A stretch of 64,000 nt of DNA from positions 1,736,001 through 1,800,000 of the forward strand of contig NZ_CP119787.1 in assembly GCF_029338255.1 (NCBI RefSeq). Direction: 5' to 3'. The DNA comes from Haloarcula halobia. Lineage in GTDB: Archaea > Halobacteriota > Halobacteria > Halobacteriales > Haloarculaceae. The notes under the pieces are model-generated. The model made no database searches and was not told where the DNA came from. It worked only from the letters and a program-made list of their open reading frames with translations. Positions 5,075-50,232 of this stretch are shown piece by piece. Position 1 is the first letter of the stretch. Every line of letters starts with the position of its first letter. Made by a program: the position numbers and the translations under genes.

Positions 5075-6039
5075 CGATCACCGTAGTCGATTCGGGGGTC
5101 CAAGACCGTGTAGGCGATGTCCTGCAGCAGGTTCCCGACGATGGCGACGAACACGCCGATGAGCGTCGTCGCGAGCACCAGCGGCGTGTCCTGTGTCTGG
5201 ATGGCCCTGAAACTCAGCTGGCCGAGCCCCGGGATGCCGAAGACGACCTCCACGAGGTAGGAACTCGCGATGAACAGGCCAAGCAGGTCCGCGACCAGGA
5301 TGGTCGAGAGCGGGACTGCCGCGGGTCGCAGGACGTGCAAGAGCAGGATGCGGCGGTCCGAGACGCCCTTGGCCTTGGCCGTCTTCGTGAACGTGGCCTC
5401 GACGTACTCCAGGGCCTCCGCGCGGGTGTAGCGGGTCAGGCTGGCTATCGACCCCGTGGTGAGGACGAACACGGGGAGGACCAGCTGCCTGACGTTCTCG
5501 AGGCTGAAGACGGGCGCGTCCGGGTTGAAGACGATGGGCACCAGGTCGAGGTGGACCCCGAAGAGGACCAGCAGGATGATGCCGAACCAGAAGTTCGGGA
5601 TGGCGTACCCGAAGAAGGCGGCGAACGTCGCGGCGTAGTCGAACCGGGAGTGCTGGTGGGTCGCCGAGTACAGGCCGATGCCGAGACCGAACGCCACGGT
5701 CAGTATCGTCCACGGGACGGAGTACATCACCGTGTAGGGGAGCGCCTCCATGATGGCCTCGGTCACCGGCTGGCCCCGCGAGGTGCTGTAGCCCCAGTTC
5801 CCCGTCGCCATGTTCGTCATGTAACTGCTGTACTGTTCCCAGAGTGGCCGGTCGAGGCCGCGCTGGGCCTCGACGGCCTCTTTCGCGGCCTCGGCGTCCC
5901 CGCCGCCCGCGGCCGCCTGGAACTGGATTGACGCCAGCGCCTGCTGCTGTGTCACGAACAGCAGCGCCCAGGTGATAGAGAGGATGATGAACGTTGCGAC
6001 GACCGCCCACAGCAGGCGTCTCGCGACGTACCACCTCAT
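5071..6039 (-). CDS. dppB: oligopeptide/dipeptide ABC transporter permease (DppB type)
   Basis: This 322-residue permease pairs with DppC. It has a TM helix at the very N-terminus (RRLLWAVVATFIILSITW), a large extracytoplasmic loop, and the binding-protein-dependent transport core with an EAA-type loop around EALEYVEATFTKTAKAKGVS. I chose the ATG at 6039, which forms a 4 bp overlap with the stop of the binding-protein gene. A start ten codons upstream would lie inside the preceding gene. The order binding protein-B-C-D-F is the classic peptide transporter operon. Confidence 0.92.
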   Translation of the reverse strand: MRWYVARRLLWAVVATFIILSITWALLFVTQQQALASIQFQAAAGGGDAEAAKEAVEAQRGLDRPLWEQYSSYMTNMATGNWGYSTSRGQPVTEAIMEALPYTVMYSVPWTILTVAFGLGIGLYSATHQHSRFDYAATFAAFFGYAIPNFWFGIILLVLFGVHLDLVPIVFNPDAPVFSLENVRQLVLPVFVLTTGSIASLTRYTRAEALEYVEATFTKTAKAKGVSDRRILLLHVLRPAAVPLSTILVADLLGLFIASSYLVEVVFGIPGLGQLSFRAIQTQDTPLVLATTLIGVFVAIVGNLLQDIAYTVLDPRIDYGDR

Positions 6040-7928
6040 CTGTCGAAGTAGTACGTCTGTGAGTTCCACCCGCTGGCGAAGGTCTCGGACGGGCCGACGA
6101 GCTCGTCCTGGGCGCCCGTGATGTCCGACTCCATGATGAGGAAGCCGAAGGGCTGTTCGCGGGCGAGTCTCCGGAACACCTCGCCGTAGAGTTCACGGCG
6201 CGCCTCCTCGTCGACGGTCCGGGAGGCCTCCGCGTACAGTTCGGGGATGTTCGACTCGGGGACGTAGCCGAAGTAGTTGACGCTGCCCTGCTCCTGGAAG
6301 AAGACGGCGCTGGAACTGGGCGTCCGCGGGTAGGTGTTGAACCCGAGCACGATGGACATGTCCCACGGTTCCTGGCCGACCGAGACGTCCCGGGGGCCGC
6401 CGTTGAAGAGTCCGGCGCTCCAGGGCACCTCCTCGCCCTCCGGCGGACTGTTCGCGGCGTAGTTCTGCTGGAAGGTGTTGCCCGGGACCGTCTGTATCTC
6501 GACGCCGACGCCGAGGTTCCGTTCGACCTCCTGTTTGATGAGCTCGGCGAGGGTCTGGTTGGTCTCGCTCGCGGAGCTGGCAAACAGGGAGAGCGACACG
6601 TCCTCCCCGTCGGGGCCGACCAGCGTGTCGCCGTCGTAGCGGTAGTCGGTATCCTCGATACCCCGACGCATCCGCTGCCTGGCGACCTCGCTGCCGTACA
6701 GGTCGCCGGTCCCGAAGGTGTACTGGTCCATCCCCTCCGAGACGTACCACTTCGAGAACTGCGGTTGCATGGTGTAGGCCGGTTCCGCGTACCCACGATA
6801 GAGGTTCTCCGCGAGCGTCTGCTTGTTGATGGCCATCGCGAACGCCTGCCTGACCGGAATCTCGCGGAACAGCTCCCAGCCGTTGGCCCGCATGTTGTAC
6901 TTGATGGCCTGGACGAACGGCTGTGGCTGGACGTAGACGTCGACGCTCCCTAACTCCTGGAATTCCGTGGCGTTCTTCGGCGGGATGCCGACCGACGTGA
7001 CCTCCCCTTCGCGCAATGCGTTGAGCCGGGAGGACTCCTCCGGGATGACCTGTATCCGGTAGGACTCGAAGTACGGGACGTTCGACCACTCCTCCCCCAG
7101 CCCCTCGACGTCGCGGAGATAGTAGTCCTCGTTGCGCGTGGTGCGGAACTGCGACTCCCGGTTCCACTCCTCGAAGGTGTAGGGCCCGAGGTTCCCCGTA
7201 TACTGGAGGTTCAGTAACTCCTCGTCCTGCTGGAGGCCAACCGCGTCCTTCTCGGGGACGTACTTCTCGAGGAGTCCCTTCGGCAGGCAGTTCTGGCCCC
7301 ACAGAATCGGTTTCAGCGGGAACGTCGGGTCCACCTCCGGCAGCCGAATCTCGAAGGTGAGCTCGTCCACCTGCTCGACAGGTATCGGCTCGCCCTGGCG
7401 GAACCAGTCGGTGGCGCTGGTGTAGCCCGCCCAGTTGTCCTCGCCCTGGAACACGTTGCGGATCATGTACACCCAGTCCTCGGCGGTCATCTGCCCGTAG
7501 CCGCCGCCCCACTGGAGGTTGTCACGGAGCGTAATCCGGTAGGTCTGCCCGTCCTCCGTCGAGGGTTCGGCCCACAGCGGGAACACGTTCTGGTCGTCGT
7601 CGACGGCCCACGCCCCGTCGAGCGTCAGATCCACGTACGCACCCGAGGTTGTGTCGTTCGTGTAGAGCCAGTTCAGGCCGTTGGCGTCCGACCCCGCGAC
7701 GCCGACGAACTCGCCGGAGGGCTGACGCGCCCCCGACCCGTCGGTCGAACCGCCGTTGCCAGACTGCTCGGTCTGGGTCGGCCGGGCGTCGCCACCACTA
7801 TCGCTCTCGCCACCGCCGAAGAGTCCACAGCCGGCGACGGACGCCGTCGCGCCGACCCCGAGCGTTTTTAAGAGGTCACGCCGATTCGGTCGGTAGAGCG
7901 ACGACGGTTCCGAATCCCTGCTTGACAT
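6036..7928 (-). CDS. dppA: ABC peptide transporter substrate-binding lipoprotein (family 5)
   Basis: This 630-residue extracellular receptor captures peptides and hands them to DppBC. The N-terminus has a Tat motif (NRRDLLKTLGVG) followed by the lipobox ASVAGC, so it is exported folded and probably lipid-anchored. A low-complexity Gly/Ser/Asp linker follows, then a complete SBP_bac_5 domain. It is the first gene of the leftward operon and ends overlapping dppB. The closest substrate (peptide, nickel or sugar oligomer) cannot be decided by reading; the dpp naming rests on operon structure. Confidence 0.92.
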   Translation of the reverse strand: MSSRDSEPSSLYRPNRRDLLKTLGVGATASVAGCGLFGGGESDSGGDARPTQTEQSGNGGSTDGSGARQPSGEFVGVAGSDANGLNWLYTNDTTSGAYVDLTLDGAWAVDDDQNVFPLWAEPSTEDGQTYRITLRDNLQWGGGYGQMTAEDWVYMIRNVFQGEDNWAGYTSATDWFRQGEPIPVEQVDELTFEIRLPEVDPTFPLKPILWGQNCLPKGLLEKYVPEKDAVGLQQDEELLNLQYTGNLGPYTFEEWNRESQFRTTRNEDYYLRDVEGLGEEWSNVPYFESYRIQVIPEESSRLNALREGEVTSVGIPPKNATEFQELGSVDVYVQPQPFVQAIKYNMRANGWELFREIPVRQAFAMAINKQTLAENLYRGYAEPAYTMQPQFSKWYVSEGMDQYTFGTGDLYGSEVARQRMRRGIEDTDYRYDGDTLVGPDGEDVSLSLFASSASETNQTLAELIKQEVERNLGVGVEIQTVPGNTFQQNYAANSPPEGEEVPWSAGLFNGGPRDVSVGQEPWDMSIVLGFNTYPRTPSSSAVFFQEQGSVNYFGYVPESNIPELYAEASRTVDEEARRELYGEVFRRLAREQPFGFLIMESDITGAQDELVGPSETFASGWNSQTYYFDR

Positions 7929-7948
7929 TATCTAGCGGAAAAGAACCG

Positions 7949-7964
7949 TACGATTATTAATTGT
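7949..7964 (-). promoter_or_regulatory. probable TATA element of the peptide transporter operon
   Basis: Read on the minus strand, the segment contains AATTAATAATCG in otherwise GC-rich DNA, centred about 29 bases before the dppA start codon. That distance fits a haloarchaeal promoter giving a leaderless or near-leaderless transcript. The call rests on composition and position only. Confidence 0.5.
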
Positions 7965-8036
7965 CGGTCTGTGTCGCCACCTGCGCGGCCGCGTCGGCCC
8001 CGTGACCCGCCTCCTCCAGCAGATCCCGCGTCGGCG

Positions 8037-9137
8037 TCACCGGAAGTCGTCGAGGCGCAACTGGTCCGGCGCAACGCCGCCGGGTTCGTCGGCCCCCAGG
8101 AGCCGCGGGAGGGCCGTCGTCGCGAACGTGAGGCCCACGACGAGCAGTATCGGCGCGAAGAAGAGCCCGTAAAAGCCCAGCACGACCGGGCCGAGGGTGT
8201 ACGCGAGCATCAACAACCCGACGTGCGTGTTCTCGCCGCTGAGCAGCGGTCGCAAGAGCAGGTCCGGGACCGTGTCGACCACGACCACGGCGACGGCGAG
8301 GAAGACGAGCACGAACACCAAAAGCGACGAGTCGCCGCCAAGCACGACGGGGAGCGCGGTGATGCCAGTAAGCGGGAGGTAGACGACTTTCATGCCCACG
8401 ACGGGGACCAGACTCGCGATGCCGGTCAGGGCCCCCGCCAGGGCCGGGTACGGGACCTCGACGGACGCCGGGGCCAGCGCGTTGTACCCGGAGAACGCGG
8501 CGATGGCGATGAGCGAGATGGCGACGACGTTCAACAGGTTCCCAAAGAGGACCGCCTCGAGTTCCGCGTCGACGGCCTCCAGGTACTCCCGAATCACGGC
8601 GTCGTCGTCGAAGCGCAACAGCCACTCGCGGATGCGCCCGCCGTCCACCAGGAGGTAGTAGGTGACGATGACGCTGATGAAGAGGTTCAGGAAGAAGTTC
8701 GAGACCAACGACGTCACCAGCGCCGCGTGGTCGCCGACGAACTTGATGACCGGTGAGAACTGGCCGGACTGGTAGGCTCCGTAGAGCCCCTCGATGGTCA
8801 GGTCCGGCATCGTCCCCACGTCGTCAAGCCAGGCGACGTGCGTCGCGGCCACGGTCAGGAGGTCGTACTGTTCGACGAACTGGCGGGATTCGATGACGAG
8901 CAACACGCCGGCGTAGGTCACGAGCACCAACAGCGGGAGCACGAGCGACGCCATGACGATCACCGCGCGGACGCGTGCCGGCAGTCGGAGCCGCCGCAGT
9001 GACTTGTAGAACCGCCGGGTCGAGTAATAGAGGAACACCGAAACCGTCAGCGCCGCGATGAACTGGTAGGCGAGCACCCCGATGACCAGTGTGACGAGGA
9101 CGCCAAAGAGGGCGACAACGAACCGTTTCTCGTCCAT
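8037..9137 (-). CDS. AI-2E family transporter (PerM/UPF0118)
   Basis: This 366-residue polytopic membrane protein has hydrophobic segments grouped in the family pattern: two close N-terminal helices (about 8-45), a third at about 60-80, a long soluble loop containing the ALVTSLVSNF region, then four or five C-terminal helices around SLVPVVGMKVVYLPL and LMLAYTLGPVVLGFYGLFF. The GxxxG-rich C-terminal half is typical of the family, whose members export small molecules or sodium; the substrate here is unknown. The ATG at 9137 follows a TATA-like GATAAAG segment by a short distance. The upstream in-frame extension is not acidic and was dropped. Confidence 0.88.
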   Translation of the reverse strand: MDEKRFVVALFGVLVTLVIGVLAYQFIAALTVSVFLYYSTRRFYKSLRRLRLPARVRAVIVMASLVLPLLVLVTYAGVLLVIESRQFVEQYDLLTVAATHVAWLDDVGTMPDLTIEGLYGAYQSGQFSPVIKFVGDHAALVTSLVSNFFLNLFISVIVTYYLLVDGGRIREWLLRFDDDAVIREYLEAVDAELEAVLFGNLLNVVAISLIAIAAFSGYNALAPASVEVPYPALAGALTGIASLVPVVGMKVVYLPLTGITALPVVLGGDSSLLVFVLVFLAVAVVVVDTVPDLLLRPLLSGENTHVGLLMLAYTLGPVVLGFYGLFFAPILLVVGLTFATTALPRLLGADEPGGVAPDQLRLDDFR

Positions 9138-37844: not shown

Positions 37845-39644
37845 TCAGCTGCCGGACTCGACTCGAATCTGGTGTTCGGTCACGTAGAGGGCTTTCAGCG
37901 TCGAGAACGGCGAGTCGATGCCGTCCGTGTTCTGCAGGCCGTAGTCGTAGTGCGCGGCCCCGTACTGGCCGACGGTCAGGTTGCCGGTGACGGCGAGGCC
38001 GTACAGGTCGCCCTGCTTGATGTAGAGGAACCCGGACCCGGTATCGCCAGCGGGCGCGTACACCAGCCCGTCGAACGACGCCCGGTTGTTGTTGGACCCT
38101 GCGATGGTCATCGTGAACTCACGCGGGGCGAACACGCTGAGCTGACTCGACTTCTCGCCGGGCACGTGGACGGCCGCGTTCTTGCCGACGTGGAAGTTCA
38201 CGTCCTGGTTGCCGAGCCCGGTCGGCGAGACGGTCGTCGTACTCTCGCTCTCGACGATGATCTGCACGTTGCCGTCGCCTTCGACGGTGATGTTGCCGCC
38301 TTTGGTCAACTTCACGTAGTCGCGGACCACGATCGCCACGTCGCCACTGGTCGTATCTAGGACGAGCTCCTCGTCGTCGTCGAGCTCGATGTCGTGGACG
38401 TAGTACCTTCCGGCGTCCAGCTCGGCCGTCGATCCGTCCATGGTGAACTCGTCGGCCGTGATGAGCGGCGTGGCGCCGTTGTCGTTGTTTTGCTCGACTT
38501 CTGTCGCGACCCGGTCGACGAACGCGTCGATGGGGTCGACCGCCGTGACGCCGGATATCTGCTCGACGTCGCCGGCGATCTTGGTCTCCTCGGTGGAGTC
38601 GGGCGCCGGGTCACTGGTGTAGTCGACGCTCCCGTTGATATACGCGCTGCCCTGGACGTCGACGACGCCGCCGGACCTGACGTCTCCGTCGACGAGCGAG
38701 TCACCGCTCCCCTTGAAGTCACCCGCGGCCTGGATCAGGCCGTTGGCCGCTCTGGTCTCCGTGTAGTTGCCTTCGGAGGAATCGTAACTGTTGACGTACG
38801 CGCCCGTCCCCGCGATGGCGAGTTCGCCGTTGTTCGACGTCGCGATGAGGCCCGCGTCCACCGACGTGCGTCGCGGGAGGACGAGGAACAGTGCCGACAC
38901 CTGCTCGTTCGCGTGGTCGTAGGCCACGATGGCGGTCGTCTCGTCCTCGAAGTACCGCCCCCAGGCCTCGTAGTACTCGCTCTGGACGGTCACGGTGATG
39001 GTTCCGCCAGCGGGCTGGTTCAGGAACCCGTCGGTCGCGTTGGGGTAGTGGCGAACCGGTTCGCTCCTGCGGGTGATCTGGACGTCACTGGTCAGTCCCT
39101 GATCGCCGTCGACGACGACCAGAGGCATCGTGAGCGTATTCTCGCGGTAGTGGAACTCGGGCCGCGAGAGCATCACGGAGCCCTCTCCGTCGCTCCGCCA
39201 GATGCCGCCGCCCTCCGAGGCGACGGTCGTCTCCCCGTTGACGTACTCGACCGTCCCGAGCGTGGCGTTCACGACCTCCGCGCTCGTGCCGTCGCTATCG
39301 TTGTACGCGTCCACGCGTATCCAGCTGGTCTCGTGGTGTCGAAGGTCGCCGTCGTTGGCGGTGAGTCCGAGGTCGACCGCTCTGGACGGCGAGTTCCCGA
39401 GCGCGACCGCGCTCGCCTCGCTGTCGAACGACGCCAGTGCGTTCTCCGCTGCCGAGACCTCCGCGTCAGTCTGTAGTTCTGCGATGACTGCAGACCCACC
39501 CACGACGACCGCGAGTACACCCAAAATGACGACCGAGAGCAGCAGGACCACACCGAGTACTTCCGATTGGCCGCGGCTCGCGGTTCGCCCGCCCGACAGC
39601 GGGGCGGTCACACGGTCGATCAATCGGTCGGGTTCTGCGTTCAT
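37845..39644 (-). CDS. large pilin-like surface protein (DUF7289 type)
   Basis: The 599-residue protein has a short charged start, RGQSEVLGVVLLLSVVILGVLAVVVGG as an N-terminal TM helix resembling pilin-like helices, and a long Thr/Ser/Asn-rich exterior. A repetitive part at about 300-360 (VDGDVRSGGVVDVQGSAYI) suggests a beta-helical stalk. The helix lacks the SPVIG processing site, so type IV pilin processing is not assured. It follows the true pilin gene on the same strand after a 138 bp gap containing a hairpin. A surface or adhesin role is inferred. The ATG at 39644 is chosen over GTG/ATG upstream. Confidence 0.82.
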   Translation of the reverse strand: MNAEPDRLIDRVTAPLSGGRTASRGQSEVLGVVLLLSVVILGVLAVVVGGSAVIAELQTDAEVSAAENALASFDSEASAVALGNSPSRAVDLGLTANDGDLRHHETSWIRVDAYNDSDGTSAEVVNATLGTVEYVNGETTVASEGGGIWRSDGEGSVMLSRPEFHYRENTLTMPLVVVDGDQGLTSDVQITRRSEPVRHYPNATDGFLNQPAGGTITVTVQSEYYEAWGRYFEDETTAIVAYDHANEQVSALFLVLPRRTSVDAGLIATSNNGELAIAGTGAYVNSYDSSEGNYTETRAANGLIQAAGDFKGSGDSLVDGDVRSGGVVDVQGSAYINGSVDYTSDPAPDSTEETKIAGDVEQISGVTAVDPIDAFVDRVATEVEQNNDNGATPLITADEFTMDGSTAELDAGRYYVHDIELDDDEELVLDTTSGDVAIVVRDYVKLTKGGNITVEGDGNVQIIVESESTTTVSPTGLGNQDVNFHVGKNAAVHVPGEKSSQLSVFAPREFTMTIAGSNNNRASFDGLVYAPAGDTGSGFLYIKQGDLYGLAVTGNLTVGQYGAAHYDYGLQNTDGIDSPFSTLKALYVTEHQIRVESGS

Positions 39645-39709
39645 GTATGGTAAATCGTTGTGTTGTCGGTTTTCGTTGCTGGTGTGGCCCCGCATTCCCG
39701 GTCTAGACC

Positions 39710-39782: not shown

Positions 39783-40199
39783 TTACGGTGCTTCAGAGGA
39801 GGCCAGAGTGGCGCTCTTGTCGTTGTTCGGGTTGTTGTAGACGACTCGGATGGTCTCGCCTGAGGTGACGGCTTGGCCCGAAACGAGTTCGACACCCGCT
39901 GAGACGCTCGTACCGTCAGCGACGGATTTTGGGATCGTATCCGAGGACGACCCCTTGACAGTCAGGTCATCCTCGGGGATGGTGTCACCACCGTCGTGCG
40001 TGACAGTCACGTCGCCACTGTCGTAGTCGAACTCGAAACTCGCCTGTGGCGTGGCGCTCGTCGAGCTACCGAGCCCGAGTACGAACGAACCGATGACGGC
40101 CGCGAGAATGACTGTGATCGCGACCATCAGGACGACCCCGATGACTGGCGACACTGCGTTTTCTTCGTCGAACATCGCTTTGAAGTTGCGTAGTTGCAT
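39783..40199 (-). CDS. pilA: type IV pilin (PilA family)
   Basis: The 138-residue protein has the haloarchaeal class III signal sequence: DEEN then [20 protein letters not shown], where the prepilin peptidase cuts before AVSPVIG, and the following hydrophobic stretch builds the pilus core. The short Ser/Thr-rich C-terminal domain has no cysteines. It is the first minus-strand gene of the pilus region and precedes a second surface protein. A large leader with hairpins lies upstream. It probably encodes the major subunit for the ATPase and platform encoded at 41.9-46.9 kb, though haloarchaea have many paralogues. Confidence 0.93.
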
Positions 40200-40364: not shown

Positions 40365-40683
40365 ACCCCGGCCGTATGTCACTGCGACTCCGCGCACCCT
40401 ATCGGCCATCTCTGCAAGTTCTCCAAGCCGTCATGGGGTCATTGTTATTCGAGTGATAACGGAACGTTACTGGAAAGTAGAATACTTATTCCGGTGTATT
40501 AGTGGCCTAGTTCCGGTTTTTAACAGGCTCCTTCCGAGATGTTCTCGAGGGTTTGTGACAGTGTAACAACGAGTCCTGATTACGAACCGGGAGTCAACGC
40601 ATGCCACTAGCAATCCGAACAGAAGACGGCACCGCGGCGACTCGCGCGTGTGAGCGCGGACGAGAACAGCTCGGAGGGTGTCG

Positions 40684-41307
40684 ATGACGGACGTTCTCTC
40701 GACAGGGATCGACGTCCTCGACCGGAAGCTCGAGGGCGGCCTGCCGGCCGGGAGCCTCGTGCTCCTCTCGGCGGACCCCGCCAGCCAGTCCGAGCAGATG
40801 CTCTACGAGCTGACGGTCCCACGGTCGATGCTCTACCTCACGACGGCCCGCTCGCCGTCGGCCGTCATGGCGGCGGTCGAGAACGCTGGTGGCAACCTCG
40901 AGTCGACGAACGTTCACGCGCTGGGCGAACGACCGCTGAACGAGGCCTTCACACTCATCAGCAACTGTCCCCCGAACTCGACGATCATCATCGACACCAT
41001 CGACATGCTCGAGACCCGGCAGACCCAGGAGTACCTCCACTTCCTGAACGACGTCCGCAGCGAGCTGCTGGCGAAAGACAGCTACGCCGTCCTCCACGGA
41101 CTTGACGGTCGTCAGGTACAGGCCCAGCGAGACATCACCGAGTACCTCTCGGACGTCATATTCGAACTGTCGACGGAGATCCGCGGAGAGAACATCGAGA
41201 ACCGGCTCATCGTCCCGAAGTTCCGCGGCGGCGTGCCCTTCGACGAGACGGTGAAACTGGAACTGACAAAGGAGGTCGCCATCGACACGAGCCGTGACAT
41301 CGCCTGA
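40684..41307 (+). CDS. RecA-superfamily KaiC/RAD55-like protein with no Walker A lysine
   Basis: The 207-residue protein follows the KaiC/ArlH pattern (LSTGIDVLDRKLEGGLPAGSL, then hhhhD strand STIIIDTIDMLETRQ), but where the P-loop should be it reads LLSADPASQSEQM, with no glycine-lysine. It is therefore unlikely to hydrolyse ATP in the ordinary way. ArlH, the archaellum regulator that caps ArlI, is also a KaiC relative, so a structural or moderating role next to the pilus ATPase is plausible. It lies upstream of pilB by 550 bp in the same orientation, probably on its own promoter. ATG at 40684; GTG at 40678 is an alternative. Confidence 0.8.
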   Translation: MTDVLSTGIDVLDRKLEGGLPAGSLVLLSADPASQSEQMLYELTVPRSMLYLTTARSPSAVMAAVENAGGNLESTNVHALGERPLNEAFTLISNCPPNSTIIIDTIDMLETRQTQEYLHFLNDVRSELLAKDSYAVLHGLDGRQVQAQRDITEYLSDVIFELSTEIRGENIENRLIVPKFRGGVPFDETVKLELTKEVAIDTSRDIA

Positions 41308-41857: not shown

Positions 41858-44482
41858 ATGGCTGCTGAGCAGCAGACAGCCACAGATGAGGGACCACAGG
41901 CGAAACCGGTGGTCGTCGGGACCTACACCTGGGACGACCTGATGGCAGAAGTCGGCTACGCCGACGACATCCCCTCGGTCGTCGAGACCGAACGGGACGA
42001 ACAGGCGGACGACGACGGATTCCTCGGCTTCCTGGGACGAAAGAATCGGTCCAGTGGGACTGGACGCGTGCGGGCCTGGGACGCCACGGAGTTCTCTCCG
42101 GAAGCGTACCTGGGGTTCCACCCGGACGAACTCCCGGAGGTGCTCGGCCACGGCATCGCGTCGGCCCTTCGATTCCGGGCGCAGTTCGCTGCGTGGATCG
42201 AGAACACACCCGTGGTCAAAGACGAGTACACCTGGGAGCACTTCAAGTGGGAGTACTACTACGACGACCAGGGTGAGAAGCCGCGGGACGAGAACGGCGA
42301 GGTCGAACCGTTCGACCCCGAACAGTTCCTCGGTTTCGCCCCGGAGGAACTCGACTCGCGTCTCGCACGCGGAGCCGCGTTCGCCGAGACGCTCGACGAC
42401 GTCTTCGAAGAGCGGACGGTCAACGTGAACCCGGATATCGACGAGGACCTGTTCTTCTCGGACGTCGACGGCGTCACGACCCTGGCGAACCGGTACGACC
42501 TCGAAAAGGCGGTTTCGATGGCCAAGAAGCGACATTTCGTCGAGATCGAACGCTACTGGGTCAACAAGCCCTACGCGTTCGTCGTCGTCTTCCACTCGAT
42601 CAAGGAAAACGAGAAGAAGTACTACCTGATCGAGCCGTACCTGAACGACATCGAGGTCAACGTCAAGGACTACCTCACCGGTCGCCTCCGCAACGCCATC
42701 AAGTACTCGGAGGACGACGCGCTCATCGACGGGTCCGACGAGGACCGCTCGGTCATCATCGAAGACGAGACACTCCGGCTCTTAGACCAGTACGACCTCC
42801 TCGAGGGGAGCGACGACGACAGCGTCACGAGCCAGTTCAAAGCGCTCCTCTCGGACAGCGTCGAAATCGAGGAACACGACGGCGAACTCCGCGGTCTGAA
42901 AGCGCGACCGGAACCCGCAGTGCTCGCGGAGGACTCGGGCACGCTCACCGAAGCGCAGGTCGAACGCCTGCTCTACGAGCTCCAGCGCGACTTCCTGGGC
43001 TACGAGCGCATCGACGGCATCAAACACGACGTCAACGTCGAGGACATCTCCTGTGACGGGTACAACTCGCCGGTGTTCGTCTACCACTCCGAGTACGAGA
43101 ACATCATCACGAACGTCTCCCACGACGAGACCGGACTCGACAACTTCGTGGTGAAACTCGCCCAGCGCTCGGGCAAGGGCATCTCGAAGCGCCGCCCACA
43201 GGTCGACGCCACGCTCCCAGACGGGTCGCGTGCACAGTTGACGCTGGGCCGCGAAGTCTCGGACCACGGGACGAACTACACTATCCGGCAGTTCAAGGAC
43301 GTTCCCTACACCCCGATCGACCTGATCAACTGGAACACCTTCTCCCTCGACGAGATGGCGTTCCTCTGGCTCGCGATCGAGAACAACCGCAGTCTGGTCT
43401 TCGCCGGGGGGACCGCCTCGGGCAAGACGACCAGTCTGAACGCCGTCTCGCTGTTCATCCCGTCGAACTCCAAGATCGTGACCATCGAGGATACGCGCGA
43501 GGTGGAGCTGCCCCAGCGCAACTGGGTCGCCAGCGTCACTCGCCCCTCGTTCGGTGACGACGACACCGGTGACGTCGACGAGTTCGACCTGCTCGAGGCC
43601 GCACTCCGACAGCGCCCGGAGTTCATCGTGATGGGCGAGGTTCGGGGTGAAGAGGGTCGCACGCTGTTCCAGGTCATGTCCACCGGGCACACGACCATGA
43701 CGACCTTCCACGCCGACTCCGTCGGCGAGGTCCTGAAGCGGTTCACCACCGCGCCGATCAACGTCTCGAAGACGATGTTCACCGGGCTCGACCTGGTGTC
43801 GGTCCAGACCCAGACCCGCGTGCAGGGCCGCAAGGTCCGGCGCAACAAGACCATCACCGAGGTCAACCACTACGACCCCGAGAACGACGAGATCAACGTC
43901 CGGGAGATATACGAGTGGCAGCCCGAGAGCGACGAGTTCCTGAAACTCGGCCGTTCCAACACGCTCGAAGACATCAAGTTCGACCGCGGCTGGGACAGCG
44001 ACCAGCTCGAAGACGAGCTGTTCAAGCGCAAGACGGTGCTGGCCTACCTCATCGACAACGGCTTCTCCGACTACTCGGAGGTCGCCGCGACGCTCCAGGC
44101 GTTCATCAACGACCCGGACGCGATCCTGGGACTGATGGCCCGTGGCGAACTCGGCGAGAGCCTCGCTGACCTCCGCGAGATGGAGAGCGTCCAGATCGAC
44201 ATCGACCCCGAGAAGGAAGCACTCGTCCCCCGTCCGGAGCCGGACGACGAGACGGCCGAACTTGCGCGGGAGATCCTCGACACCGCGGAGTCGACGATAC
44301 TCGGAGACTACCGAGAACAGGAGGCAGGGACGCTGTTCGGCGCGTTACCCGAAGCCATCCGTGCGGCGGGCGCGGAGATTCGGAGCGGACTGGCGACCGA
44401 CGGCATGGGCGACGTGGACTCACAGCACTCCAGCGTCGTGGAACTGAGCGACGAACGAGCGGACGCGGAGCACACGGAGTAA
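41858..44482 (+). CDS. pilB: type IV pilus assembly ATPase (PilB/TadA/ArlI superfamily) with duplicated N-terminal domain
   Basis: This 874-residue ATPase drives pilus assembly. The C-terminal engine has Walker [10 protein letters not shown] (517-525), Asp box [13 protein letters not shown], Walker [13 protein letters not shown] and His box [15 protein letters not shown]. Preceding it are N-domains with ECPD-like features. The first 190 residues contain two clear copies of a module: [19 protein letters not shown] (23-120) and [19 protein letters not shown] (124-188). A further 150 residues follow the ATPase, ending in an acidic tail. The ATG at 41858 follows GGTGGGG. It is first in an operon with the P1-like gene, pilC and five pilin-like genes. 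Confidence 0.93.
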
Positions 44483-44486
44483 GACG

Positions 44487-44879
44487 ATGGAATACGTTTA
44501 CGCAGCGCTCATGCTGCACGAGACTGGCACCGAGATCAACGAACAGAACCTCACCGCGACCGTCGAGGCGGCCGGCGGAGACCCCGAGGCGTCCCGCATC
44601 AAGGCTATCGTCGCGGCGCTCGAGGACGTCGACCTCTCGGCGACGGAAGCGGCGACGACGGAGTCTGCCGGGATGGACCTCGCACTCGAACGCGACGACT
44701 CGGACGACGGGTCGGACACGGAGCGCGACGAGTCCGACCGACTCGATGCGCTGTTCGACGTCGAGAACGACGCCGAAAGCGGGGGGCTTGAAGACGAAGA
44801 CGACTCCCTCGAGGGAGGTGCACGTCCCAGTGACCCCGACGGCGAGGCCGAGGAGTCGAGCGACGAACCGGAGGCATAG
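44487..44879 (+). CDS. paralogue of ribosomal stalk protein P1/L12 in the pilus operon
   Basis: The first 50 residues ([20 protein letters not shown], then [26 protein letters not shown]) follow the archaeal P1/L12 dimerisation domain almost residue for residue from memory. After it comes a long acidic Ser/Asp/Glu region of 75 residues. The ribosomal tail motif ending GLGxLFG, which recruits elongation factors, is not at the C-terminus, although RLDALFD (about 88-94) slightly resembles it. It is 4 bp after pilB and its stop directly adjoins the pilC ATG. Real L12 is normally in the L11-L1-L10-L12 cluster, which is not here. Pilus function is inferred from location only; it might bind PilB, PilC or ribosomes. 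Confidence 0.85.
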
Positions 44880-46916
44880 ATGAGTACGAAGACTGGTCAA
44901 TCGCAATCCGTCCGCACGTTCGAGGGGAGTGCAGACCGGTTAGGGAACCTGTTCTATCCGGTCTACGAGTTCCTCTTCGACGACTCGGACGCGTTCGTCC
45001 AGTCCGTCGAGACGAAGCTCGCTGAGTCGCGGATGCCCGACACCGTCGAGATGTATCTCTCGCACGCCATCGCGGTCGGATTCCTCACGGGAACGGTGTT
45101 CTGGCTCCTCGGTATCGGACTGGGGTACGTCCTCGCCTCGCTGGGCTTCCTGGCCGGACCGTTACTGGGCGTTCCACTGCCGGACAGCGGCGTCCTCGTC
45201 GAGCTCGTGCGAACTCTCAGAGCGCCCTTCGTGGTCCTCTTGCTGGGGTTCGTCCTCGGCGGACTCGGCTTCGGGGCCGGGTTCGGGACCGTCGTCGGGA
45301 TCCCGTACCTCCGCGCCAACGAGCGCAAGCGCGAGATCAACATGCTCCTGTCGGACTCGGTGTCGTTCATGTACGCCCTCTCGCTGGGCGGGCTGAACCA
45401 GCTCGAACTGCTCGAGGCGATGGCGAAAGCCGACGACACCTACGGCGAAGTCGCTCGCGAGTTCCAGGCCATCGTCCGTGAGACCAAGACACTCGACGTC
45501 GACTACCGGACGGCCATCAAGAACCAGATGGACCACTCCCCGAGCGACGAGTTCCGCGAGTTCCTCGTGGACATGCTCTCTGTCATCCACAGCGGTGGGA
45601 ACATGACGCAGTTCCTCGAGGACAAGAAGCACAAGTACATGCGCACGGCGAAACAGGAACAGGAACAGACGCTCGACGTGCTCGAGCTCCTGGGCGAGAT
45701 GTACATCACCATCTCCCTGTTCCCGCTGTTGCTCATCATCATCCTCGTGGTGATGAACATGCTCGGAAACGCGTCACAGATGATGCTGTACGTCACTGTC
45801 TACGCGCTCATCCCGATCATCGCGCTGGCGTTCCTGGTGCTGGTCACCACGGTCAAGCGCGACGAGTTCGGCGACGGGGTCATCAAGCCACGCGACGCGA
45901 GCATCTGGCTGGACACCGAGAACCAGTCCGGCATCAGCAACCTCGGGTTCATTTCCTCTTTCAGAGGCACGTACTACATCTTCGACCGCATCGCGGCGAA
46001 GCGAGGGCTCGAAGAGACCGTCGAACTGCTGTCCAAGCCACACCTGTTCTTCAGGGACAACCCGCTGTACACGTTCGCGCTGAGCGTTCCGGCGTCCGTC
46101 TCGCTGGTCGCAGCGGCGGCGCTGTCCGGTGCCGTGCCCACCTCGTGGGCCGACGTGGTCCAACAGCCGGTCTGGTCGACGTTCGTCTACGTCTACATCC
46201 CGCTGTTCCTGGTCGTGACACCGATGGCCGTGTTCCACACCTGGAACCAGCGGTCCCGGCGCGCGATACTCGGGAACCTCTCGGACACGCTCCTGAAGCT
46301 ATCTTCCGTCAACGCGACGGGGGCGACCGTCCTCGAGTCGATCAAGACCGTCTCGGAGACGTCGTCGGACAAGCTCGCAGAGGAGCTCCGGATCATCCAC
46401 CACAAGGTGCACTTCGGGATGAGCCTCAAGGAGTCGCTCATCGAGTTCAACAACAAGTACCAGATGCCGCAACTCGCGCGGACGGTGAAACTCGTCACGA
46501 AAGCTCAGGAAGCGTCCAGCCACATCGCTGTCGTCCTCGCGACGGCCGCGCGTGCCAGCGAGAACGCCGACGACCTCCGACGGGAGCGACACTCCCGCTC
46601 GATGATGCAGGTGGCGATCGTGCTCATGACCTACGTGACGCTGCTGGGCGTGATGGCGCTACTGAAAGTGCAGTTCATCGACGTCATGGCGGACTTTGGC
46701 TCCGCTGGGACCACGGGGAACGCAGGCGGGATGTCACTCGGCGGCGCCGTCGACGCGGACCTGCTGTCGTTGATGTTCTTCCACGCCGTGACCATCCAGG
46801 CCGTGTTCGCCGGCCTCATCTCCGGATACCTCCGTGAGGCGACCCTCCGCGCCGGCGCGAAGTATATCGTCGTGCTCCTCGCGCTCTCCCTGACCGTCTG
46901 GGCGGTGGTGGGATAG
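44880..46916 (+). CDS. pilC: type IV pilus platform protein (PilC/TadC, T2SSF family)
   Basis: The 678-residue membrane protein anchors the ATPase and pilus. It has two copies of the T2SSF domain (about 160-280 and 460-580; SVSFMYALSLGGLNQLELLEAM and DTLLKLSSVNATGATVLESI) and about nine TM segments in three groups. The ATG directly adjoins the P1-like gene stop. The acidic N-terminal 50 residues and the split arrangement match the archaeal PilC/ArlJ form. It would bind PilB and pilin-like subunits coded in the same operon. Confidence 0.93.
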   Translation: MSTKTGQSQSVRTFEGSADRLGNLFYPVYEFLFDDSDAFVQSVETKLAESRMPDTVEMYLSHAIAVGFLTGTVFWLLGIGLGYVLASLGFLAGPLLGVPLPDSGVLVELVRTLRAPFVVLLLGFVLGGLGFGAGFGTVVGIPYLRANERKREINMLLSDSVSFMYALSLGGLNQLELLEAMAKADDTYGEVAREFQAIVRETKTLDVDYRTAIKNQMDHSPSDEFREFLVDMLSVIHSGGNMTQFLEDKKHKYMRTAKQEQEQTLDVLELLGEMYITISLFPLLLIIILVVMNMLGNASQMMLYVTVYALIPIIALAFLVLVTTVKRDEFGDGVIKPRDASIWLDTENQSGISNLGFISSFRGTYYIFDRIAAKRGLEETVELLSKPHLFFRDNPLYTFALSVPASVSLVAAAALSGAVPTSWADVVQQPVWSTFVYVYIPLFLVVTPMAVFHTWNQRSRRAILGNLSDTLLKLSSVNATGATVLESIKTVSETSSDKLAEELRIIHHKVHFGMSLKESLIEFNNKYQMPQLARTVKLVTKAQEASSHIAVVLATAARASENADDLRRERHSRSMMQVAIVLMTYVTLLGVMALLKVQFIDVMADFGSAGTTGNAGGMSLGGAVDADLLSLMFFHAVTIQAVFAGLISGYLREATLRAGAKYIVVLLALSLTVWAVVG

Positions 46917-47447
46917 ATGCCGTCGTCCCGTACCGCTCGCGGCCAGTTGACCCTCGACTTCCTGACGGGGATGGCGGTTTTCTTCGTCGTCGTCGGGTTC
47001 GTCTTCATGTTCGTCCCCGGACTCGTCTCGTCGGCTCCGGACGACCAGGAGGCACCGTTGGTCGCCGATCGGGTCGCGAACCAGCTCGTCGACTTCCACC
47101 TCGGCGAGCCATCGACTGCGGCGCTGGAGCCGACCTGCACGGCCGACTTCTTCAGCCAGAGCAGCCCCGATTCGTGTGGGACGCTCGATACGAGCCAGCC
47201 ACTGCACGACCGGTTAGGTATCGACGACCGGTATCGAGTGAACGTCTCGATCCGGCCCGACGACGCCGGTAGAACCGACAGCACGGCCCTCTGTACGAGC
47301 GGTGGGTCAGTCGGCCCGTGTTCGGGCAGCGGCACCCCCCTCGTCGTCGGAGACACGTACCAGTCCGGCGAAGGCACGGTCGTAACTGTAGAGCGCCACG
47401 TCTCGATAGACGGGACAGACGCGCTCCTGGTGGTGGAGGTCTGGTGA
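46917..47447 (+). CDS. pilin-like protein, DUF7287 type
   Basis: The 176-residue product starts with RGQLTLDFLTGMAVFFVVVG, a pilin-like positively charged neck and hydrophobic helix without an SPVIG site, then a soluble domain with several cysteines (TCTADFF, CGTL, CTSGG, PCSGSG) that may form disulfides outside the cell. It begins one base after the pilC stop and ends two bases before the next gene. It is probably a minor pilin or pseudopilin. Confidence 0.82.
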   Translation: MPSSRTARGQLTLDFLTGMAVFFVVVGFVFMFVPGLVSSAPDDQEAPLVADRVANQLVDFHLGEPSTAALEPTCTADFFSQSSPDSCGTLDTSQPLHDRLGIDDRYRVNVSIRPDDAGRTDSTALCTSGGSVGPCSGSGTPLVVGDTYQSGEGTVVTVERHVSIDGTDALLVVEVW

Positions 47448-47449
47448 CG

Positions 47450-48064
47450 ATGAGTGACAGAGCACAGGTGTTCACACTCGAAGCGCTGGTCTCCGGGATG
47501 CTCCTCCTGGGCGCGGTTATCTTCGCGCTCCAGGCGACGGCCGTCACGCCACAGAGCGCGACGACGGCGAGTTCCCACTCGGTGACCCAGCTCGAACGGG
47601 TCGCCGCCGGCGTCCTCGAGGACGCCGCCGAGGACGGCTCGCTCAAGCGGACCGTCCTCTTCTGGGACCCGTCCGAGGAAGCGTTCCGCGGGCTCGAATC
47701 GTACGAGTCGGGCTACCAGAACGGTGATCTCCCGACCACGTTCGGCGAGCAGCTCCGCCGGAGCTTCGCGACCGGTGGCGTGGCCTACAACGTCAACGTC
47801 CGGTATCAGGTGCCCGGAGACGACCCCGAGACCGTGACCGTCGTCGACAGCGGGACGCCCAGTGACGACGCCGTCCGCGTCGCGACGCTCGTGACGCTCT
47901 ACGACGACGATCCCCTGTACTACGACGACGACGACAACGACTCGACTGCGGCAGTCCCGAGCGCGGACACCGTCTCGTCGGGGTCGTTCTACGCGCCGGA
48001 CGATTCACCCGGAAGTGGCGTGTACAACGTCGTCTCCGTGGAGGTGGTTCTGTGGTCCACCTGA
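47450..48064 (+). CDS. pilin-like protein, DUF7288 type
   Basis: The 204-residue protein has RAQVFTLEALVSGMLLLGAV as an N-terminal pilin-like helix, and an acidic, beta-rich outer domain with an Asp-rich stretch (YDDDDNDST). A GGAGGT sequence nine bases before the ATG at 47450 decides the start. It overlaps the next gene by 13 bp. Function as a minor pilus subunit or priming-complex component is inferred from its place. Confidence 0.82.
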   Translation: MSDRAQVFTLEALVSGMLLLGAVIFALQATAVTPQSATTASSHSVTQLERVAAGVLEDAAEDGSLKRTVLFWDPSEEAFRGLESYESGYQNGDLPTTFGEQLRRSFATGGVAYNVNVRYQVPGDDPETVTVVDSGTPSDDAVRVATLVTLYDDDPLYYDDDDNDSTAAVPSADTVSSGSFYAPDDSPGSGVYNVVSVEVVLWST

Positions 48065-49047
48065 TCTCGGTGCGAGACGCCACGGACCGCGGACAGGTCC
48101 TCCTCGTGACGACGTTCGGTATCGCCGTCCTGCTCGTCGCCCTGACGCTGGTGTTGAACGCCTCCGCGTTCGCCCAGACGATGGCGACGACCAGCAGCGA
48201 CGACAGTCGAGCGGCAGTCGGCTTCACGACCGCCGCCACGGACGGCGTCGCGGGCTCGATAGCCTACGCGAACGAACACCGCAACGAGAGTCAGGTTGCA
48301 CTCCGATCCGAACTCGAAACGAGCGTCGCCGACTGGAGTGCCAGTGCTGACGACGACGCAGCGATGCGGGGCGGTCGTACGAACGTGACCCTGACCGGGT
48401 CGACCCACGAGACCCGCATCTCACAGACCGTCTCGACGCGTGACTTCCGGAGCGGCGCGACCAGCCCCGAGGACGACTGGACGCTCGCCAGCGACGTCTC
48501 CGAGGCGAGAGATCTTCGACTGAACGTCTCCGAGAGCGCGCTCGTCGAGTCCGACCCCGACGGTGACGTCGGCACGCTGACCGGCGACGATGTGTTCCAT
48601 GTGCTCGTCACCGAAGACGACGGCGACACCTGGCGGCTGTTCGTCTACACGAACCAGTCCGACGTGGTCGTCAGGGTTGAGGACACGAGCGGGACCCTGT
48701 ACAGCGCGTGTACGGTCGACCCCGCGTCGGGCGAATCTGTCACCGTCGACCTGGTCGACGGGAAGTTCGACGGGAGCGACTCGTGCAGTGGTTTGGACAC
48801 CTTCGGTGACGTCGACAGTCCGTACAGCCTCGCGTTCCGCTCGGCAGCCAACGTCGAGGGGACCTACACGATGCTCGTCGAACACGGTCCGACCGGCGTC
48901 GACGACAGCAACTACGCGGACGACGAGACCAGCGGCCCGACCGCAGAGGGCCAGATCTCGTCGGCCTCTATCCGACTCACGTACGTGAGTTCGAGCGTGG
49001 AGTACGTCACCGAGACGACGGTCGAGGCAGGTGATGGCGATGCGTGA
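48052..49047 (+). CDS. pilin-like protein, DUF7261 type
   Basis: The 331-residue protein starts with GTG at 48052, with GGAGGTG a few bases upstream deciding it. RGQVLLVTTFGIAVLLVALT is the hydrophobic N-terminal segment, followed by a long Thr/Ser/Asp-rich ectodomain of repetitive beta character containing only two cysteines (CTV and CSG). It overlaps both neighbours, which fits tight co-translation. Its size suggests a tip or adhesive subunit, which is an inference. Confidence 0.82.
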   Translation: MVHLISVRDATDRGQVLLVTTFGIAVLLVALTLVLNASAFAQTMATTSSDDSRAAVGFTTAATDGVAGSIAYANEHRNESQVALRSELETSVADWSASADDDAAMRGGRTNVTLTGSTHETRISQTVSTRDFRSGATSPEDDWTLASDVSEARDLRLNVSESALVESDPDGDVGTLTGDDVFHVLVTEDDGDTWRLFVYTNQSDVVVRVEDTSGTLYSACTVDPASGESVTVDLVDGKFDGSDSCSGLDTFGDVDSPYSLAFRSAANVEGTYTMLVEHGPTGVDDSNYADDETSGPTAEGQISSASIRLTYVSSSVEYVTETTVEAGDGDA

Positions 49048-49498
49048 CCGAGGCGTCTCGCCGGCAGTCGGCTTCGTGACGACGCTGGCCATCACCCTGC
49101 TGCTGGTCGTCTCGCTTTTCACGTCGACGGGCACGCTCGTGGCGTCTGAACGCGACCAGACCGTCCAGGCGGAACTGTCTGTCCTCGGCAACGAGTTCGC
49201 GAACCAGCTGAGCAGCACGGACACGCTGGTCCGTGCGAACGGTTCCCCCACGACGGTCCGCGTCACCGACCGACTCCCCGAACGCGTCGGCGGTGAACAG
49301 TACCGCATCGCCATCGAACAGACCGGTACCAGTGGCGACGCCTACCGATACCGACTCATCGTCACGAGCGCATCGGTGGACGTCTCGGCGGTCGTCGACC
49401 TCAAGACGGGCACGCCCGTCGAAGAGACGACCGTCGACGGTGGCGAGGTCACCGTCTCGTACGACGAGGCGACGGGGACTCTGGAGGTGAACGGCTGA
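49034..49498 (+). CDS. pilin-like protein, DUF7266 type
   Basis: This 154-residue protein has MRDRGVSPAVGFVTTLAITL, the closest of the five to a real prepilin site (SPAVGF compared with SPVIG), so it may be processed. A beta domain and acidic tail follow. ATGs at 49034 and 49040 are both possible. Its stop overlaps the start of the next gene by one base. It is probably a minor pilin. Confidence 0.82.
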   Translation: MAMRDRGVSPAVGFVTTLAITLLLVVSLFTSTGTLVASERDQTVQAELSVLGNEFANQLSSTDTLVRANGSPTTVRVTDRLPERVGGEQYRIAIEQTGTSGDAYRYRLIVTSASVDVSAVVDLKTGTPVEETTVDGGEVTVSYDEATGTLEVNG

Positions 49499-50232
49499 TG
49501 GACCGCGGCCAGAGCACGACGATCGGCTTCGTCGTCATCTTCTCGATGGTCCTCCTGATGGTGGCACTCATCAGCGCCAGTGGCTTCGCGACGCTCGACC
49601 ACGTCCAGGACTCCGAGCGCGTCAACAACGGCGTGCGCTCGTTCGAGATCCTCTCGGACAACGTTGACGACGTGGTCGGCGACGAGGTCCCGAGCCGGAC
49701 GACGACGGTGAAGCTCTACGACTCGCAGCTCTCGGCGGCCGGGACCACCACTATCGAAATAGACGTCCCCGCGGACGGATTCTCCCACGCGTTCGAGGTC
49801 GCTCCGATCGTCCTCGACGCGGGAGCCGGGACGGACGTCGTCTACGAGAACGGCGCGGTCATCCGGTCGGACCCCGACGGAGAGGTGATGGTCGACGAAC
49901 CGGCGATGCTCCTGACCACCGACTACACCGTGCTCCCAGTCGTCCGGACCGAGACCGTGTCCTCGACGGCCGTCGGCGGGCAGTCCAGTGCCACGATCCG
50001 CACCACGCGCGCCGGTACGACCGTCCTGCGGACTGACACCGAGAGCGGTGGCGTCTACGACGACGTCACGCTCACGGTGACCAGCCCGCGCAGCGAGGCG
50101 TGGTTCCGGTACCTTGACGCGCAGTCGGCGACCGACACCTGCACTCGCAGCGGAGACACCGTCACCTGTACGCTGACCACCAGCGAGGTGACGGTCTCCG
50201 TGACCGACGTCGACGTCCGATTCGACACCTGA
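49498..50232 (+). CDS. pilin-like protein, DUF7289 type
   Basis: The 244-residue protein has DRGQSTTIGFVVIFSMVLLM as N-terminal helix, then an Ig-like outer domain with VDEPAMLLTTDYTVL and two cysteines near its end (CTRSG and CTLTT). It resembles the large minus-strand surface protein at its N-terminus and general layout. A GGAGGTG before the ATG decides the start. It is the last gene of the pilus operon. Confidence 0.82.
   Translation: MDRGQSTTIGFVVIFSMVLLMVALISASGFATLDHVQDSERVNNGVRSFEILSDNVDDVVGDEVPSRTTTVKLYDSQLSAAGTTTIEIDVPADGFSHAFEVAPIVLDAGAGTDVVYENGAVIRSDPDGEVMVDEPAMLLTTDYTVLPVVRTETVSSTAVGGQSSATIRTTRAGTTVLRTDTESGGVYDDVTLTVTSPRSEAWFRYLDAQSATDTCTRSGDTVTCTLTTSEVTVSVTDVDVRFDT

Follow-up and report, generated by a model that had tools for sequence, protein, structure and literature searches.

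Introduction

The archaeal ribosomal stalk protein P1/L12 (aP1; TIGR03685; PDB 3a1y) is one of the closest described systems for the gene considered here; P1 dimers clasp the spine helices of P0 (PMC4379515), and the true P1 of archaea carries at its C-terminal end a hydrophobic LF(G) motif that is required for EF1A binding (PMC6791870; PMC4379515), such that deletion of the last three P1 residues abolishes this binding (PMC6791870). Another is the PilB3-PilC3 type IV pilus module of haloarchaea (Makarova clade 2); in the loci examined, the canonical pilB and pilC genes overlap or have a few bp between them. Bacteria are known to control PilB through small proteins (PMC11656802), such as PilZ, a PilB cofactor of about 120 aa. 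No description of a P1-like component of pilus motors was found in the open-access literature searched, and the main text of Makarova et al. 2016 does not mention "ribosomal", "L12" or "stalk".

The window analysed here is a stretch of 64,000 nucleotides of the Haloarcula halobia genome, and the name P1L is used for the 130-aa protein that it encodes at 44487–44879, as listed in Table 1.

Results

P1L lies in a secondary pilus locus

The P1L reading frame opens with ATG on the forward strand, the TAA stop codon of pilB (44480–44482) leaves a gap of 4 bp before it, and its own TAG stop codon (44877–44879) directly abuts the ATG of pilC at 44880, so that the spacing given in the earlier note (4 bp behind pilB, 0 bp ahead of pilC) agrees with the codon positions on both sides. 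The PilB and PilC proteins of this accessory locus are homologous to the canonical pair of the same genome and 53–63% identical to it; the canonical pilB3 and pilC3 are separated by 3 bp (L073), whereas the accessory locus has an intervening gene, a KaiC-like DUF7125 gene and pilins of its own. The other P1L loci are likewise secondary pilus loci, with DUF7125, usually a Pilin_N gene, and the pilin-like genes DUF7287, DUF7288, DUF7261, DUF7266 and DUF7289. Nearly every accessory pil locus examined, whether it has P1L or not, has a linked DUF7125 gene, which is absent near the canonical pilB3 locus of the window genome.

P1L is an optional member of such loci, being absent from related accessory loci in three genomes (G065, G020 and G066). 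Among the loci without P1L, three (L112, L115 and L118) carry PilB reading frames with very long acidic C-terminal extensions (total length 1199–1323 aa) directly before pilC, and the PilB of L117 has a shorter acidic extension.

Table 1. Features of the accessory pilus locus, in positions of the window.
Feature	Position	Strand	Evidence
Large pilin-like protein (DUF7289 + DUF7305)	37845..39695	-	
PilA-like pilin (Pilin_N)	39783..40199	-	8.3e-26
KaiC-like ATPase DUF7125	40678..41307	+	DUF7125 2.6e-61
pilB of the accessory locus, second PilB3-like ATPase of the genome	41858..44482	+	T2SSE 2.8e-30, PilB3_C 3.7e-6; paralogue of the canonical copy at G000:C1:2521413
P1L, tailless ribosomal-stalk P1 paralogue, 130 aa	44487..44879	+	TIGR03685 4.5e-18; 3a1y 2.1e-15; orthologues in 11 other pilB-pilC loci
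P1 N-terminal dimerisation / spine-binding domain, aa 1-51	44487..44639	+	Profile and PDB matches; L107 orthologue model; dN/dS
Acidic tail without C-terminal GLGxLFG, net charge -28	44640..44876	+	Sequence
Internal LDALF, aa 86-90, LxxLF-like putative remnant	44742..44756	+	Sequence; putative functional role
pilC platform protein	44880..46916	+	T2SSF 6.3e-24
Pilin-like DUF7287	46917..47447	+	
Pilin-like DUF7288	47438..48064	+	
Pilin-like, DUF7261 just under threshold	48052..49047	+	
Pilin-like DUF7266	49031..49498	+	
Pilin-like DUF7289	49498..50232	+	

P1L is a paralogue of the ribosomal stalk protein P1/L12

P1L is a genuine paralogue of the archaeal ribosomal stalk protein P1/L12. A profile search of its N-terminal residues against the P1/L12 families, set beforehand as a possible refutation of the homology, returned NCBIfam TIGR03685 with E = 1.4e-19 for residues 1–56 alone and 4.5e-18 for the whole protein, and residues 1–51 match the P1 of P. 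horikoshii (PDB 3a1y, E = 2.1e-15), which upholds the earlier proposal that the N-terminal 50 or so residues follow the archaeal P1/L12 dimerisation domain. The match to Pfam Ribosomal_60s is sub-threshold (19.9 bits, cut-off 28.1). With 65.5 bits P1L stays below the TIGR03685 equivalog cut-off of 100 bits, whereas the true P1 of the same genome scores 125 and two tail-bearing second copies score 122–125. This true P1 is encoded at G000:C1:2482767, directly downstream of L10/P0 and about 700 kb from P1L, while P1L itself is not adjacent to rpl10/P0.

The fold was examined in an AF2 model of a PilB-P1L chain of the L107 locus, which belongs to a close relative; in this read-through construct the stop codon was treated, purely for the modelling, as a residue. 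The P1L domain of this chain is modelled with pLDDT 88–94 over most of its length and fits 3a1y_A with a TMt of 0.86 at 1.3 A, and the same domain also matches human P1/P2 chains. Across ten P1Ls the positions M1, Y3, A6, L10, E19 and R37 are invariant, many positions of the P1 domain are identical to true P1 and most of its hydrophobic positions stay hydrophobic, a conservation that is compatible with a homodimer on a P0 spine helix; surface drift from true P1 is seen at positions 31–35 and 50–53.

The factor-binding end is lost

P1L has no counterpart of the GLGxLFG at the C-terminus of true P1; its tail is acidic (41% D+E, net −28) and ends in DEPEA. The C-terminal LF(G) end is missing from all 11 complete P1Ls and is present in the true P1 of the window genome as well as in 15 of 15 tail-bearing second P1 copies. 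The earlier statement that the elongation-factor-binding tail is missing at the C-terminus is hence accurate, with the nuance that an internal LDALF (residues 86–90) resembles the LxxLF core of the factor-binding end. Two congeners (G021 and G024) have this internal segment as LDTLF, and sequence comparison found no internal LxxLF in the closest relative (G023) or in the more distant P1Ls; the LDALF/LDTLF segments may be remnants of the factor-binding end. Compared with aP1, P1L accordingly shares the sequence and fold of the N-terminal domain and an acidic low-complexity tail, but it lacks the C-terminal LF(G) and is encoded in a pilus operon, in a genome that has an intact rpl12 at another site. 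A DEPTSEAM repeat array was observed at the PilB C-terminus of another P1L locus (L084, G160, 5162–8838), with a DPAME repeat array in the neighbouring P1L tail.

Distribution among haloarchaea

In a sample of about 490 haloarchaeal genomes, at least 11 complete tailless P1Ls linked to pil genes were detected, the window genome (G000) included; this count and that of second P1 genes are lower bounds, as the class-wide scan scored the best ten candidates per genome. The carriers belong to family f1 (5 of 146 genomes: G000, G021, G023, G024 and G118), family f4 (5 of 170: G160, G208, G343, G430 and G458) and family f2 (1 of 26: G419), and a twelfth P1L was found in a Halococcaceae MAG immediately behind pilB, on a contig that ends 12 codons into the gene. 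At least four families are thereby represented among the P1L loci. Among the carriers with a name are Halomicroarcula sp. SYNS111, Halomicroarcula rubra, Haloarcula pellucida, Halogeometricum pallidum and Haloferax marinum.

The gene order is strict: 12 of 12 P1Ls directly follow pilB and 11 of 11 complete P1Ls directly precede pilC. The gap between pilB and P1L is 2–6 bp in the window and nine checked loci (the frameshifted L087 left out), and the junction of P1L with pilC is contiguous, overlapping, or spaced by a few bp to tens of bp. The coupling to pilus assembly genes claimed for this one locus therefore generalises to twelve pilB loci, and in the survey of haloarchaeal pilB-pilC loci the relatives carry P1L only between these two genes, so that the second refutation set beforehand, occurrence unrelated to pilB-pilC in nearly all relatives, did not apply; none of the 11 complete P1Ls is linked to rpl10/rpl12. 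One copy (G343) is shortened and diverged. In L087 (G430, Halogeometricum pallidum contig) the pilB frame is broken near residue 700, at about position 9080 of the locus, with an unresolved base, and the near-identical pilB copy of G458 is open; the break is probably an assembly error.

A scan of the genome contigs with the PilB N-terminal region as query recovered the P1L loci, and a scan of the same contigs with P1L itself gave no matches. No P1L relatives were found in viral contigs, and the sampled non-haloarchaeal genomes of the phylum contain a single P1 each, except one fragmented MAG with three. Weak P1L matches in three genomes (G051, G136 and G138) fall inside thioredoxin-reductase-like reading frames and were set aside as chance.

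Other extra P1 genes

At least 15 tail-bearing second P1 genes were also observed, mostly in family f3 (L081, L086, L088, L089, L091–L093, L095–L097 and L099–L103), all away from rpl10. Like P1L they are second P1 copies in their genomes; unlike P1L they keep GLGxLFG, have a full P1 score (two tested) and are never near pilB. Three of them used as neighbourhood queries revealed no neighbour recurring across the set, and it is possible that these genes give rise to stalk heterogeneity.

Outside pil loci no tailless P1 copies were found, except a reading frame of G422 with tandem P1-like domains and no LFG tail (L085, G422:C5, 8861–9300 and 9168–10109). It overlaps a protein-kinase-like reading frame in another frame, the opposite strand has close by a second similar kinase-like reading frame that includes a PQQ-like repeat region, and transposase-like reading frames flank the area. 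The tandem reading frame may be a further case of a co-opted P1 domain, or a fusion that has been frameshifted.

Selection and evolutionary history

The P1 domain of P1L is under purifying selection, with dN/dS of about 0.25–0.31 over residues 1–51 in five pairs and no amino-acid change over the same residues in a sixth (L087/L151). The PilBs accompanied by P1L fall in an accessory region of the PilB tree where resolution is poor. Their grouping as a single clade was rejected (AU p = 0.012, in a tree that scored L139 as a PilB without P1L), which implies losses or transfers. The P1L tree is too short for resolution and is compatible with a single origin.

Search for a binding partner

The read-through models gave no usable docking, each containing a single P1L copy: the PilB-P1L chain of L107 reached a pTM of 0.34 and left the greater part of the ATPase region unmodelled, and in the P1L-PilC chain of the window PilC was modelled well with the P1L domain at pLDDT of about 50–58. 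Profile comparison of the P0 spine with PilB and PilC returned no significant match (probability 0.3% and 0.1%) and no P0-spine-like segment. A clade-specific insert in the PilB N-terminal domain was considered as a docking site and rejected, as it is present in PilBs without P1L (L072, L111 and L112, and mostly in L115) and missing from L139, which has P1L; the earlier suggestion of PilB residues 1–190 as the partner is weakened by the same distribution.

Discussion

The reading favoured here, which we hold to be evenly poised between right and wrong, sees in P1L a dimeric adaptor or accessory subunit of the PilB-PilC motor at the secondary locus, derived from a tail-losing duplication of rpl12/P1. 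The stalk gene would have been duplicated in haloarchaea, the copy would have lost its C-terminal factor-binding end, and it would then have become fixed in a secondary type IV pilus locus, with pilB on one side and pilC on the other. Its N-terminal domain has probably kept both dimerisation and helix binding, in the manner of P1 dimers on P0 spine helices (PMC4379515), and it is by analogy with these that we infer dimerisation, a partner on PilB and/or PilC and a mechanical role. As a small accessory subunit of the motor, the P1L dimer could bridge or stabilise PilB and PilC, or it might modulate PilB in the manner of small bacterial cofactors such as PilZ. The likeness to PilZ, which is likewise small and soluble and presumed to act on the ATPase of pilus assembly, is an analogy between unrelated families in which no sequence relation was seen. 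The acidic tail would stay disordered, serving solubility in high salt or offering short contact motifs. In favour of this reading are the strict order pilB-P1L-pilC, the distance of all tail-bearing second P1 genes from pilB, the purifying selection and invariant positions of the domain, its P1 fold, and the pilins and KaiC-like ATPase that the locus has of its own; the missing docking signal in the chain models, the lack of a P0-spine-like segment in PilB and PilC, the accessory loci without P1L and the shortened G343 copy speak against it.

Action at the ribosome is the main rival, where P1L would form mixed dimers with true P1 or occupy the P0 spine, and, lacking the factor-binding end, would lower or re-tune stalk function or hold ribosomes close to the membrane while they translate the pilus operon. 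So highly conserved a P1 domain may indeed have kept the ability to bind P0 and to heterodimerise, and three Haloarcula copies keep the internal LxxLF, but the surface drift from true P1 described above, the lack of linkage to rpl10/rpl12 in every complete copy and the unvarying place of the gene between pilB and pilC across several families, which better fits a pilus component than a general translation modulator, make this reading rather unlikely. Less probable again is a regulator that works with the KaiC-like DUF7125 or a pilin and not directly with PilB or PilC; DUF7125 and usually a Pilin_N gene do accompany the accessory locus, but accessory loci that lack P1L have DUF7125 too (L072 and L074–L078), and its position relative to pilB varies whereas that of P1L is constant. 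That P1L is a nearly neutral leftover of duplication in a mobile pilus locus, or that its translation matters only for the coupling of pilB and pilC, would suit a rare and optional gene with one degenerate copy, but is very improbable given the purifying selection on the P1 domain, its retention across divergent PilB lineages in at least four families and the scarcity of tailless copies elsewhere.

The adaptor of the PilB-PilC motor also has a bolder form, in which a stalk protein was recruited as the dimeric subunit of a secretion-ATPase/pilus-platform motor, possibly holding ribosomes or P0/P1 and coupling pilin synthesis to pilus assembly; we regard this as a long shot.

P1L is a real and conserved instance, maintained under selection, of a ribosomal stalk domain put to another use within the pilus operon of an archaeon, and its function there is a matter of inference. 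The proposal is directly testable, as strains in culture are among the carriers (Haloarcula pellucida, Halogeometricum pallidum, Haloferax marinum) and Haloferax is a genus amenable to genetics. P1L points to a haloarchaeal pilus-motor component not found described so far, and, archaeal ribosomal stalk domains being known from translation, it is a clean case of the re-use of a part of the ribosome outside its usual place.
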